Of a stretch of DNA of 64,000 nt, positions 15,512 through 21,344 are shown in pieces (the stretch's first letter is position 1; the number at the start of each line of letters is the position of its first letter). The DNA is taken from positions 56,534 to 120,533 of the forward strand of contig PLRJ01000162.1 in assembly GCA_003163855.1 (NCBI GenBank), read 5' to 3'. The DNA is from Bryobacterales bacterium (GTDB taxonomy: Bacteria; Acidobacteriota; Terriglobia; Bryobacterales; Bryobacteraceae). Position numbers and translations under genes: made by a program. The notes under the pieces are model-generated. The model did no database searches. It was not told the DNA's origin and saw nothing but the letters and a program-made list of their open reading frames with translations.

Positions 15512-16984
15512 TCACTCTGCATCCCCGGTCAGTCGTTTCATCGGCCCATTACAAACCGCCAGAACCACGGCAAGAACAACCGCCGCTATACCAACGCTCC
15601 CAAACAGCTTCGGCAACGGCATCGTCTCAAACACCGAGGCCAAACGCCCGCTGATGTAATCCCCCACCGAAATCGCCAGGAAAAACACCCCCATAATCAG
15701 CCCCGCAATCCGCTGCGGAGCTAGCTTCGTCATCGCGCTCAATCCTACCGGACTCAAACACAGCTCGCCAATCGTCTGCAGCAGATACGTCATCGTCAGC
15801 CATATCGGACTCACGCCCGACTTTGCCGCAATCGGCACCAAAATAATAAAACTGAGCCCCGCAAACAGCAAGCCAATAGCAAACTTCATCGTGCTCGAAG
15901 GGTTTCGTTCTCCCAGCTTCACCCACAGCCACGCAAAAATAGGCGCGATCGCGATGACAAACAACGCCGGCAGCGATTGGAACCAACCGGCCGGAAACGG
16001 CTGCGACATCCCAAACACCAGGCGGTTCGTCCTGCGCTCGGCAAACAGATTCAACGTCGAGCCCGCTTCTTCATAAATCGACCAGAACAACGCCGCCGCC
16101 GCAAACAGCACAAAGATCGCTATCAACCGGCCGCGCTCCTCTTTGCTCCACTTTCCGAACGTCAACATACCCGCAAAAAGAACCACCACAATGGTGGTCA
16201 GCATCACGCCAAAACCCGATGACAGCGATTGAATCGACAGCGTCCCGTCGTACGCCAGCTTGCCGCCAATGCCCATCACCAGCAGGAAAGCGGTCACGCC
16301 CAGCCGGAATCGTAACCGTTCCGGCGCTTTCACCACCGGCGCCGCGCCTGCCGTGCCCAACGTGCGTCCGGACAGCGCGTATTGCACCACGCCGATGGTC
16401 ATGCCTATGCCGGCCAGCCCGAATCCATAATGCCAGTTGATGTTCTCCCCCACATAACTGCAAACAAGCGGCGCAGTAAAGGCACCCAGGTTGATTCCGA
16501 TGTAGAAGATGGAAAAGCCCGCATCCCGTCGCGCATCATGCTTCCGGTAAAGCTGCCCCACCATGGTGCTTACGTTCGGCTTTAGCAGTCCCGTTCCGGT
16601 AACTATCAGCGCCAACCCCAGAAAAAAAGTGACAACGCTGGGAAACGCCATGCTGAAATGTCCCAGCGCGATGATGATGCCACCCGCCAGCACAGCTCGG
16701 CGCGCCCCTAGAATCTTGTCCGCAATCCATCCGCCTGGCAGGGCCAGCAGATAAACCATGCCCGTGTACAGCCCATAAATCGCACCGGCTTCAGGCGTTG
16801 CAAAGCCCAGCCCCTTGCGCGCAACCGGCGCGGTCATAAACAAAATCAGCAGCGCGCGCATGCCGTAATAGCTGAATCGCTCCCATAACTCCGTTAGGAA
16901 CAGCGTGCGTAATCCAACCGGATGCCCGAAAAAACCTGCATCCCGCTTCTGCGATTCAATCGGCTGCTCAAGTGTTTGGTCGAT
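15512..16984 (-). CDS. POT/PTR family peptide MFS transporter (extended to a candidate AUC start)
   Basis: Supplied ORF starts mid-motif; reading frame extends through GHPVGLRTLFLTELWERFSYYGMRALL to a stop at 17000-17002; GGAGGAG lies 6 nt before ATC at 16984. Confidence 0.8.
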   Translation of the reverse strand: MDQTLEQPIESQKRDAGFFGHPVGLRTLFLTELWERFSYYGMRALLILFMTAPVARKGLGFATPEAGAIYGLYTGMVYLLALPGGWIADKILGARRAVLAGGIIIALGHFSMAFPSVVTFFLGLALIVTGTGLLKPNVSTMVGQLYRKHDARRDAGFSIFYIGINLGAFTAPLVCSYVGENINWHYGFGLAGIGMTIGVVQYALSGRTLGTAGAAPVVKAPERLRFRLGVTAFLLVMGIGGKLAYDGTLSIQSLSSGFGVMLTTIVVVLFAGMLTFGKWSKEERGRLIAIFVLFAAAALFWSIYEEAGSTLNLFAERRTNRLVFGMSQPFPAGWFQSLPALFVIAIAPIFAWLWVKLGERNPSSTMKFAIGLLFAGLSFIILVPIAAKSGVSPIWLTMTYLLQTIGELCLSPVGLSAMTKLAPQRIAGLIMGVFFLAISVGDYISGRLASVFETMPLPKLFGSVGIAAVVLAVVLAVCNGPMKRLTGDAE

Positions 16985-17044
16985 GGCGCACTCCTCCAGT
17001 TAATGTAGTCGATCCAACTGTTCACAGGCGATATTATCTTCTGC

Positions 17045-18808
17045 GTGGTCTTCATCAGCTACGCCCGCAAGGATTACTATTTTGCTGAGTCGCTAGCTTT
17101 CCATTTGCAACGCTATCGCGTTCCGGTCTTTCTCGACGCCAAAGACCTGGCGCCCGGCATCGACTGGCAGCAGCAGCTCGAGGCCGCTCTCGACACCGCA
17201 TCCTGTGTTCTGCTCGTCGCTTCGCCCGACAGCGTGAAGCGTCCCGCGGTCCGCATGGAGTGGGAGCGCGCCATCAAGACCGGCCGCCGCATCATTGTCG
17301 TTCTGTTTCGCAAAACCGTCCTCCCGCCCGAACTGACCGGCTATCAACGGGTCGATTTCCGCGCCCGCTTCGACACTGGATTGCACGCTCTCATTCAACT
17401 CCTCGCCGGCCAAACGCCGGACCGCCCGGCAAGCACATTCCTGACCTTCCCGCCCTGGATTTTAATCATCACGCTCACCCTGCTGGTGCCGCTGCTCAGC
17501 TACTTCGCCCTCGCCGACTGGAGCACCGGCCACCAGGGCCACGCCACCGGCAACGACATCTTCCTCTGGATAATGCTGCCGTTCTTTGCGGCCGGCTTCC
17601 TCTGGTTTCTCTGCCTGTCTTTCCTGCGCCGCCGCATGGGCATGACTCACCTGATGGCCTGCTTCGCTTTTCCCGCCATTTGGAGCATCTACCCGCTGCT
17701 CCGCTACTGGATCGCCGGTCCGGCAAATCTCCCCGCTGTCTGGCAAACCGCCGTCACCACCAATCCCTTGCCGATGGAGTTGTCCTCCGCCCTCACTCTT
17801 ATCGGCGTCGGTTCCATTTTGCTGGTTCAACCAGAAGACTTGCTGCGCTGGACGCCCACCGGAAAAGCATGGGGCTGGTACCGCCGTCGGCGCTTGCTGG
17901 TTGCCGCCGGTCCCGATCGTCCCTCGCCTCTCCGCCAAATCACCCGCTACGCGTTGCTGCACCATGCGGTCGATGGCCCTGCCGCCGGGCGGCTGCGCCA
18001 GTTACTCCGCAGCCTTGGCGCATCCGAGACGCTAAACGCCTCGCCGCAGGACACCACCATCCTGCTGCTCACCTCGCGCACCCAGACGCCATGGCTCAGC
18101 CAACAAACACCGCAATTGAATACAAATGTCCTAACCATCGTCGGCTCACGCATCGGTCTTCCTAACCAATTCGAATGGCTTTGGAAGCGCGAGTGGATCG
18201 ACTTCCGTCACTGGGATCTGCAGCGGCTCGATCGCAGGCGCGGCCTGCTGCAAGTGCCCGAAGCTGTCACCAACATACGTTACCCGCGCAGCGTCATGCT
18301 TGTGCACCACTTGCTGTGCGCACTGGCCGCGCTTGCCTTTTGCCTGTTTATCTTCGCCAATCCCGACTTCAACAAGCGCCCTGCTGGCGACGACGGGCCG
18401 CCGCTTGAGAGAGCGGAGTTGCTGTTCATTTCAGCCATTTGCATCTGGGGTGGAGTCGTCGCCCAGCGCTTTCTCAATCGCACGGTTTCGGAGCAGGGCT
18501 TTGACATATCCTGGAAACGATTTCTTCTGCCTGCCACTTGCGCCTATGCGATATCGGCCATCTATCGCGCATTCACTCGGCATGCACCTATTTGGCGCTT
18601 GCTCCCGGTCATGGCTTTTCTTGTGGCTTTTCCATTCTTGTTAGCAGGCAGACGCCTGCAATTCAACTTCTGGTTTCCATCTCCGGGAACGAGCAAGCCG
18701 GGAAACACACCCCGCCTTGCTGCGGGAAGGCAGTGGCAAACCCTCCTATGGGCAACCGTCTACATGTTTGTGTGGGCCTACATCCTAGGCATTTACGACA
18801 CGGACTAA
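17045..18808 (+). CDS. Membrane-anchored TIR-domain protein
   Basis: GTG start; VFISYARKDYYFAESLAFHLQ...SPDSVKRPAVRMEWERAI; several hydrophobic segments; cytoplasmic insert ILLLTSRTQ...WIDFRHWD. Confidence 0.88.
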   Translation: MVFISYARKDYYFAESLAFHLQRYRVPVFLDAKDLAPGIDWQQQLEAALDTASCVLLVASPDSVKRPAVRMEWERAIKTGRRIIVVLFRKTVLPPELTGYQRVDFRARFDTGLHALIQLLAGQTPDRPASTFLTFPPWILIITLTLLVPLLSYFALADWSTGHQGHATGNDIFLWIMLPFFAAGFLWFLCLSFLRRRMGMTHLMACFAFPAIWSIYPLLRYWIAGPANLPAVWQTAVTTNPLPMELSSALTLIGVGSILLVQPEDLLRWTPTGKAWGWYRRRRLLVAAGPDRPSPLRQITRYALLHHAVDGPAAGRLRQLLRSLGASETLNASPQDTTILLLTSRTQTPWLSQQTPQLNTNVLTIVGSRIGLPNQFEWLWKREWIDFRHWDLQRLDRRRGLLQVPEAVTNIRYPRSVMLVHHLLCALAALAFCLFIFANPDFNKRPAGDDGPPLERAELLFISAICIWGGVVAQRFLNRTVSEQGFDISWKRFLLPATCAYAISAIYRAFTRHAPIWRLLPVMAFLVAFPFLLAGRRLQFNFWFPSPGTSKPGNTPRLAAGRQWQTLLWATVYMFVWAYILGIYDTD

Positions 18809-18908: not shown

Positions 18909-21344
18909 ATGATTTTTAGCCAATTAGCCAAACGTGTTTGGCGCTCGACCTTATTTGCTTGTTGTTTGTGCGCGCCTGAGGTAAAGGCGTCCACCATATC
19001 GGCAACGGCTCAAGCGGCTACATTGTCACCTGGAGCGGGCGGAGTATCGTCTATCGCTATAACGGGCGCCAGCAGCGCTCCGAATCTAGGCTTGGGTGGT
19101 ACCGCTTGCGTCAACGTATCGGGCTGCCAGTACAACTTGGGCGGTACCAGCGGCACAATCGGATTTGAGTTCTTGAACGTCACCAGCAACAGCGCCTTGC
19201 TGGTTATCTATGTCACTGCGTCCGTGCAGAGAAGCGCAACTGCCTACGCGCTTCCCATTACCGCCGGGAGTACCACAATAGGAACTCTTAGCCTCATTGT
19301 TCCGTTGACGGCGCAAAGCATCACATTCGGTTCCATCGCGGCGCAAACGGTAGGCACTCCCATCGCGTTGGCAGCAACCGCCACGTCAGGCCTGCCGGTA
19401 AGCTTCGCATCTTCGACGCCTGCCGTATGCACCGTCTCAGGCGACGCGGCGAACTTCGTCGCAGCGGGAACATGCACCATTACTGCATCACAGAGCGGCA
19501 ACGCCACCTATCCAGCCGCCGCGCCGGTTTCGCAGAGCTTCAGTGTGACGGGAAGTGTTGCGCAGGCTTCCGCCTATTCGACCATTTGCCAGGCACAAAG
19601 CGGCGGCGCCAGTTATTGCACCGACCAGACACCAGCCGCGGCCGATGCCAATGGCTATCACGATCTGGTCTGGGTGAACCTGAACAAGAGCCTTGCTTCC
19701 ATCGCGGTGAGCGACAACCAGGTTTGGGGACTGGACAGTAGCGGCGCCCTCTGGTACCTGCCCGATTTCAAGACGGGAACGACTTGGACGTCGGTGGCTT
19801 CGGGCGTCAGTCAGATTTCTGCCGGACACAATCTTGTGTGCCAGATCAGCAGCAATCAACACGTGCTGTGCAGCAGTTCGCCAAACCCGTCACAGGGAGC
19901 GCTTACATGGTTCGATACAGGTGCTACCAACCTGAAGCAGATTGCAGTCTCGGCGGGCACGCAATTGTGGGCGGTGGATACCAACAGCAACCTGGTTAGA
20001 GTTACCGACTACACGCATCTGGCCAGCACTTCTACCCTCGTAGCATCAGGCGTTCAGCAGGTCGCGGTGGATGGGCGTGGCATGGTGTGCCAAGTGAACA
20101 GCGACCAGGGCGTATATTGCAGCAACTGGTCGGTTCCGGCCGCTGTAGCCAATCCGGCGCCTTATCATGGCCTGACCTGGCTACGGACCGGCGCACAGTT
20201 GCAAAATATTTGTTTGGCCGATGGCCAAGTGTGGGGCACCGATACAAGCGGGAATGTATGGGAACTGCCCGACTACACCAATTCAGCAACCTGGTTCAAA
20301 ATCGCATATGGCGGGGTTGGCGAAAAGCTGGCGTCGTCGTCGACTCCGTCGCAGTTCCTGCCGGCCGATTTCGCAGGCAACGAAGTGGCGGTGCTGCTGT
20401 TCATGGGGCAAAGCAACTCGACCGGCTATAACGTGTTGCCCGCGCGTTTTATTTCACAGTCATCTCCAAACGTTTGGGGAGTACAGAATGGCGGGTGGAA
20501 TTTCCTGGCCGGGAACAACAACGGAACCGCGCCCTTCATGGGCACAATTTCCTCCATTACGTCGGTGCAATGGACTAACTTCGCGCTGACGCCCAGTGGA
20601 GCCGATATGAATCTCGGCTTCAATAACGACGGCGGTCCGGGTGGGAATGCGGCTAATTTTGCGGCGTACCAGTGGCAGGGCTTGATCAATGCCGGCTGGA
20701 ACCTTCCCGATCTGTATATTGTGCATATTGCCTGGCCCAGCCAAGGTATAGATTCAGCCGACACGACGACTGCGAATGTGGCATGGACGGTGCACGGAGT
20801 CAATTTATGGCAGCCGCTGTTAACAGCGTCGCAGGAGCCATCTTACGCGCTGGCGCCATTTGCCCGGCAGATTGTCTACCGCGCGCTGCAGAAGATTTTG
20901 GCCAACGGTAAAACGCCGCGCCTTATGGGTTTGCAATGGAACCAGTGGGAGGCTGAGGCGGGCAATGCAAACACCGTCTCCATTACGGATGCGCCCACGA
21001 ACTACAACAACCTGGTGAGTGGCTTTTTTGCGGCCATCGGCAGTCACTATCCGATTCAGTTCGTGAAACCGCTTTCTACAGCCTACGGAGCAACAGCGCT
21101 CAGTGAGATGCAGTCCGTATTTTCGAACATGGCGGCAAATGATCCCACCGATCTATCGGTCATTGATGTTTCGCAGGTAAGCAGCACCATCTTCAGCGGC
21201 GGCGTCTTGGGTGGCGGCGATGGTTCCGTCCACTATAATCTCGACACGCACAAGTGGTTTGCTACACAGGCGATTGGCACCTGCCTGGTACACGGGAATT
21301 GCGGCACTCGAATTGCGCTGTTGCCGGCTTCAGCTCCCAATTGA
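18909..21344 (+). CDS. Secreted modular protein: Ig-like repeat, tectonin/RCC1-like repeats, SASA/SGNH-type esterase
   Basis: QSITFGSIAAQTVG repeat; repeated VWGLDSSGALWYLPD / VWGTDTSGNVWELPD; LLFMGQSNSTGY ... GDGSVHYNLDTHKWFA. Confidence 0.78.
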   Translation: MIFSQLAKRVWRSTLFACCLCAPEVKASTISATAQAATLSPGAGGVSSIAITGASSAPNLGLGGTACVNVSGCQYNLGGTSGTIGFEFLNVTSNSALLVIYVTASVQRSATAYALPITAGSTTIGTLSLIVPLTAQSITFGSIAAQTVGTPIALAATATSGLPVSFASSTPAVCTVSGDAANFVAAGTCTITASQSGNATYPAAAPVSQSFSVTGSVAQASAYSTICQAQSGGASYCTDQTPAAADANGYHDLVWVNLNKSLASIAVSDNQVWGLDSSGALWYLPDFKTGTTWTSVASGVSQISAGHNLVCQISSNQHVLCSSSPNPSQGALTWFDTGATNLKQIAVSAGTQLWAVDTNSNLVRVTDYTHLASTSTLVASGVQQVAVDGRGMVCQVNSDQGVYCSNWSVPAAVANPAPYHGLTWLRTGAQLQNICLADGQVWGTDTSGNVWELPDYTNSATWFKIAYGGVGEKLASSSTPSQFLPADFAGNEVAVLLFMGQSNSTGYNVLPARFISQSSPNVWGVQNGGWNFLAGNNNGTAPFMGTISSITSVQWTNFALTPSGADMNLGFNNDGGPGGNAANFAAYQWQGLINAGWNLPDLYIVHIAWPSQGIDSADTTTANVAWTVHGVNLWQPLLTASQEPSYALAPFARQIVYRALQKILANGKTPRLMGLQWNQWEAEAGNANTVSITDAPTNYNNLVSGFFAAIGSHYPIQFVKPLSTAYGATALSEMQSVFSNMAANDPTDLSVIDVSQVSSTIFSGGVLGGGDGSVHYNLDTHKWFATQAIGTCLVHGNCGTRIALLPASAPN

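Follow-up and report, generated by a model that had tools for sequence, protein, structure and literature searches.

The question raised by this locus is how a TIR domain placed in a multi-pass membrane protein might be controlled when no partner gene is present, and whether the cytosolic module lying between its membrane helices is a second, inactive TIR. The open reading frame at 17045-18808 of the window (the whole 64,000-nucleotide stretch of DNA that was analysed, from a Bryobacteraceae-type soil acidobacterium) is confirmed and encodes a protein of 587 aa with a GTG start (Table 1). This start is uncertain by a few codons; the frame stays open for 12 codons further upstream, with no ATG, GTG or TTG there. 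Hydropathy analysis gives four transmembrane (TM) helices, a 157-residue K/R-rich loop and five more TM helices, and the layout of the single homologue described below is identical, in agreement with the original prediction of several TM segments on both sides of the loop. The cytosolic module between the helix blocks (domain plus tail) is about 125 aa long. The short TM2-TM3 loop contains RRR, and the TM1-2 and TM3-4 loops have none or one basic residue. Because the two modules are separated by an even number of helices (four) and the loops are K/R-rich, the TIR and the middle domain should, by the positive-inside rule, both lie on the same, cytosolic side of the membrane. TM1-4 appear as helices, at low confidence, in the full-length AF2 model. 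As the pLDDT of the TM packing is below 50, no interface between the TIR and the middle domain can be read from this model.

Table 1. Positions in the window of the membrane TIR gene and of the parts of its product
Feature	Position	Strand	Evidence
Complete ORF, membrane TIR protein, 587 aa	17045..18808	+	GTG start; homologue; dN/dS
N-terminal TIR domain, residues 2-121	17048..17407	+	Pfam TIR_2, Foldseek
E72 codon, catalytic-type Glu in helix alphaC	17258..17260	+	Alignment; WxxxE Trp position is A68
Four TM helices, residues 139-157, 172-190, 201-219, 243-261	17459..17827	+	Hydropathy, positive-inside count
Middle cytosolic domain, residues 294-390	17924..18214	+	AF2 models, Foldseek, sequence tests, constraint
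Basic juxtamembrane tail, residues 391-416, LxRLDRxxGLLxVPEAVTxxRxP	18215..18292	+	Homologue conservation
Five TM helices, residues 419-437, 459-477, 493-511, 516-534, 566-584	18299..18796	+	Hydropathy, conservation

One full-length homologue was found, in a genome of the same genus (L010/L011, genome G037; 581 aa, 47% identity), with the order TIR-4TM-middle-5TM. A GTDB scan by two short peptide patterns only, which sees close relatives, returned a sole relative in 'Bryobacteraceae bacterium isolate GZL_FP_2_bin.77', and this is the same gene as in G037. The 257 genomes searched in the order, also with the middle domain alone, yielded no further homologue, and neither did shallower searches of the phylum (396 genomes) and the class (399 genomes; the two sets overlap). 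There was no relative in plasmids or viral contigs. Weak genome matches to the C-terminal region or the middle domain were judged to be due to chance on inspection of the informative ones; two of these are what we take to be a 16S rRNA methyltransferase RsmG-like protein and a dihydrolipoamide acyltransferase-like protein. The TIR/pseudo-TIR membrane layout was not found elsewhere in the searched Acidobacteriota genomes or in the literature searched, in which no paper on pseudo-TIRs or on membrane TIRs of Acidobacteria came up.

All conservation and model evidence is drawn from these two sequences only. Between them, dN is 0.37 for the TIR, 0.51 for TM1-4, 0.48 for the middle domain plus tail and 0.70 for TM5-9, with dS about 3 or saturated (whole gene: dN 0.53, dS saturated). 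Judged by these values, the gene is real and its middle domain is under purifying constraint comparable to that of TM1-4. The middle domain, which is also conserved in length, is kept by the homologue in the same domain order, as the original reading implied. By region, the juxtamembrane tail is the most conserved stretch (62% identity) and TM5-9 the least conserved part (36% identity).

The N-terminus had been described as a clear TIR domain with a catalytic-type glutamate in RMEWERAI, and both statements hold. Residues 2-116 match TIR_2 (Pfam E-value: 1.1e-26; 94.2 bits, curated cut-off 28), and the protein has no above-threshold Pfam match outside these residues. The Foldseek matches of this domain include the TIRs of SPARTA, Hydra TRR-2, SARM1 and AbTir, with E-values down to 2.6e-5. 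Its elements are E2-5, H8-23, E28-30, H41-51, E54-59, H61-78, E82-87 and E101-104. The glutamate is E72, which is invariant in seven aligned TIRs and falls in the column of AbTir E208. Together, S5, D31 and E72 align with AbTir S140, D167 and E208 (betaA Ser, betaB Asp and alphaC Glu, respectively; AbTir numbering from PMC11374754), and all three are retained in both homologues despite a TIR identity of 59%.

AbTir W204 aligns with A68, and the homologue has His at this position, such that the Trp of the WxxxE motif is absent in both proteins. NADase activity of the N-terminal TIR is therefore not assured. The W204A substitution abolishes AbTir NADase activity, the matching Trp is dispensable in TcpC, and the WxxxE Trp is reported to be best conserved among cADPR-making TIRs (PMC11374754). 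From its residues, the domain could act as an NADase that yields ADPR, as a weak NADase or as a scaffold. If it too were non-catalytic and worked as a scaffold, the product would be a membrane signalling or transport-related protein with no immune role. The effect of W204A in AbTir would fit this reading, as would the housekeeping-type neighbours and the lack of a defence context, but the retention of the Glu, Asp and Ser at this level of divergence and the Trp-independent activity of TcpC (PMC11374754) argue against it, and we consider it unlikely.

The middle domain has no Pfam family match. AF2 models were generated from a two-sequence input, both for the full-length protein and for the isolated middle domain. 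In both runs, residues 294-386 are predicted to fold as beta-alpha-(beta)-beta-alpha-beta-alpha-beta, with a pLDDT of about 70-75 over most of the domain in the full-length model and of 74-88 in the core of the isolated model (pTM 0.65). The predicted order of elements, betaA-alphaA-(betaB)-betaC-alphaC-betaD-alphaD-betaE, is TIR-like. Compared with the first TIR, the modelled domain is without helix alphaB and the BB-loop, and its alphaC is shorter. A Foldseek search of the middle domain against the PDB gave no match at an E-value of 0.001 or below (observed E-values: 0.03-0.3). The three highest TM-scores among the 50 PDB matches listed all belong to TIR domains (4lqd, 0.52; 3ub4, 0.49; 4w8h, 0.49), and TIRAP (4fz5) and the IL-17RB SEFIR domain (3vbc) are among the same 50 with a TM-score of 0.45. 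By E-value, SIS/sugar-isomerase folds (1vim and 1jeo) stand first and second, with TM-scores of 0.41-0.46, and TIRAP and the SEFIR domain are mixed in with SIS/sugar-isomerase, PYCR and further Rossmann folds, whose TM-scores reach 0.46. A search of BFVD with the middle domain gave no match. The flavodoxin/TIR-like beta-alpha fold expected of this region is thus what the models predict, with the best TM-scores to TIRs. On these models, assignment to the Rossmannoid fold class is well supported and the TIR identity of the domain moderately supported. A TIR-like fold is, in our estimate, probable, and the label "degenerate TIR-like" is likely but unproven.

The original prediction had also claimed that this loop resembles the first TIR in sequence. 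In the window protein itself the resemblance is at background, as Smith-Waterman alignment of the TIR with the middle domain gives a score of 20, below the mean of 26 for shuffled sequences; when the homologue is used in the pairings, the observed scores are reached by 3-7% of 2000 shuffles. When a profile of seven TIRs is compared by HH with the middle domains of the two homologues, the probability is 1.1%, and direct sequence homology of the two modules was rejected on these results. An HMM built on 43 TIRs of related genomes matches the middle domain of the homologue with an E-value of 0.7 and that of the window protein with an E-value of 6 (suggestive, not significant), ranking them first and fourth, respectively, among approximately 200 pieces of other window proteins. 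The part of the claim that stands comes from the two-homologue profiles: profile Smith-Waterman (two TIRs against two middle domains) recovers a single co-linear block running from helix alphaC through LP to DFR, which 30/2000 column shuffles reach with loose gaps and 167/2000 with strict gaps (p about 0.015-0.08). The betaD-LP-betaE-DFR pattern is common to both modules in the same order, and the betaA region of each has a hydrophobic strand with an invariant Asp after it (D10 in the TIR, D310 in the middle domain). The predicted lack of a catalytic signature in the middle loop is borne out by the AF2 model and the alignment: the window protein has no catalytic Glu, with a Pro at the place where the homologue has a Glu in TREEWL. 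It is the predicted fold, rather than the sequence, that carries the claim of a second TIR. A second TIR-like module without the catalytic Glu appears to be the better reading of the two-sequence AF2 model, the Foldseek matches without significant E-values and the marginal sequence statistics.

The middle domain could instead be an unrelated Rossmannoid ligand binder, SIS-like or specific for another nucleotide or sugar. The protein would then resemble a Thoeris circuit on one chain, in which the TIR would make a product from NAD, the middle domain would sense it and the TM helices would cluster or leak. The marginal similarity to the TIR in sequence would be expected under this reading, the SIS/sugar-isomerase folds 1vim and 1jeo are among the best Foldseek matches by E-value, and in the TM-macro effectors of Thoeris an ADPR-binding domain anchored by TM helices is paired with the products of a TIR (PMC11204291). 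However, the SIS folds fall below the best TIR matches in TM-score (0.41-0.46 against 0.49-0.52), the LP...DFR match to the first TIR is co-linear, and no nucleotide-binding motif of the GxGxxG type is seen in residues 294-390, so that a ligand binder of this kind seems improbable. That the region is no more than an extended cytosolic loop whose short matches are incidental, as its lack of a family match and the background-level alignment within the protein would allow, is very improbable given the AF2 core (pLDDT 74-88, pTM 0.65), the purifying selection comparable to that on TM1-4 and the length kept in the homologue.

The proposed model for the degenerate TIR-like reading is as follows. The protein would be a stand-alone, nine-helix inner-membrane TIR protein with both modules facing the cytosol. 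The middle domain would be an enzymatically dead, TIR-like Rossmannoid in which betaB/alphaB and the BB-loop have eroded and the catalytic Glu is gone. It would most likely pack onto the first TIR, either in cis or within oligomers, and control it. The membrane part would sense a perturbation or cluster the protein, and clustering would allow the first TIR to act on NAD+, causing growth arrest or a local signal. Because the WxxxE Trp is missing, hydrolysis of NAD+ to ADPR would be more likely than production of cADPR. Of this model, the domain layout, the topology by charge, the conservation in the homologue and the missing catalytic features of the middle domain are observed, whereas descent of that domain from a TIR, its control of the first TIR, NAD+ as the substrate and any part in defence are inferred. 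Taken as a whole, this membrane-anchored TIR with a dead regulatory module is a tentative mechanism to which we give somewhat less than an even chance. A more specific version, in which a single-chain TIR/pseudo-TIR pair uses the dead copy to cap or complete the active site while the membrane block signals damage to the envelope, is doubtful. Activation of TIR enzymes normally depends on the coming together of separate TIRs. If the model is correct, this protein, with an enzymatic-looking TIR and a stripped TIR-like copy both on the cytosolic side, would provide a compact model for TIR restraint and release. It would also be one of few cases in which a TIR is built straight into a multi-pass membrane protein that has no partner gene.

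Among known systems, the bacterial TIR NADases (TIR_2; AbTir and TcpB/TcpC) belong to the same family and have the betaA Ser, betaB Asp and alphaC Glu in common with the window protein. Unlike them, the window protein is membrane-embedded, is without the WxxxE Trp and carries a second TIR-like module on the chain. Thoeris with a TM-macro ThsA (ThsB TIR plus ThsA TM-macro) is similar in bringing a TIR and membrane helices together, and the idea of nucleotide-driven clustering of TM helices comes from this system (PMC11204291). The window protein differs in being one chain rather than two genes, in having no macro match and in having nine TM helices rather than two. Its TIR scores below the cut-off on ThcB4 and just above it on ThsB_TIR (22 against 21.2 bits), and no SIR2-SLOG or macro gene that could encode a ThsA effector is present among the neighbours. 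TIR-STING of CBASS, in which another folded domain and oligomerisation govern the TIR (PMC9402430), is a parallel to the control proposed here. Unlike TIR-STING, the window protein has no STING domain and no adjacent CD-NTase, and is multi-pass. The CBASS TIR-SAVED and TIR-STING models match it by their TIR part only, with neither a SAVED or STING domain nor a CD-NTase neighbour. Membrane adenylyl cyclase has two related cytosolic modules on one chain with a TM block between them; it is an analogy of layout only, as its fold and enzyme family are unrelated to those of the window protein.

The TIR gene is flanked upstream by a divergent gene for a POT-family peptide transporter and downstream by a gene for a Tectonin-domain protein followed by small genes. 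Further out, the window encodes NusG-like, DUF1501/1549/1553, ABC, GH9 and M1/M28 peptidase proteins, among others. PADLOC found no credible defence gene in the window, so the absence of an obvious partner gene stands for defence-type partners. By the same token, the suggested part in defence or cell death finds no backing in the neighbourhood, where the neighbours are not defence genes; a role in phage defence is plausible but unsupported. Inspection of the ORFs flanking the homologue (L011) likewise revealed no defence gene. The homologue adjoins other genes, among them a divergent 403-aa ORF in place of the permease, and this different context argues for a self-sufficient protein. TIR matches number 21 in the genome of the window, 39 in a second genome of the genus (G025) and none in some relatives (genus range: 0 to 39). 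A TIR-rich genus and differing neighbours point to one accessory TIR among many, without a fixed partner; the gene is a stand-alone accessory gene in this genus. An empty-site comparison does not date the arrival or loss of the TIR gene here, as both the flanking permease gene and the downstream gene are rare within the genus. Next to the permease's relative in L058 there is no TIR gene. Scans for Rfam families, tRNAs and promoters added nothing for the TIR gene.

Several further observations were made on the neighbours. About 50 bases separate the start of the TIR gene from that of a divergent, unrelated neighbour in each of the two genomes (L011, 9527-9581; window, 16999-17045). The POT transporter, listed from 16861, extends upstream over 16862-16999 (-), where 25 residues match the N-terminus of the L058 relative. 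This extension has no ATG, GTG or TTG before the stop at 17000-17002; GGAGGAG is found 6 bases before an ATC codon, and either a non-standard start or a changed base would account for this. The gene at 18909-21344 (+) encodes an 811-aa secreted-looking protein with Tectonin repeats. Its N-terminal 190 residues are 61% identical to part of a 2767-aa ORF in the same genome (G000:C136) and have no match in the other 16 genomes of the genus.

Other TIR proteins in these genomes show related arrangements. A second multi-pass TIR protein is encoded in the genome of the window (L006, G000:C173; reverse strand, 411-aa ORF), with a TIR and about six TM helices and without the middle domain. Two further TIR proteins with TM helices in this genome (L007 and L003) have a TIR plus three TM helices, and a TIR plus one TM helix and a further tail. 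In G025, a 364-aa soluble ORF (L043, G025:C686) has one TIR and a second, partial TIR-like stretch (two PF13676 matches), and is possibly another pair of a TIR and a degenerate TIR.
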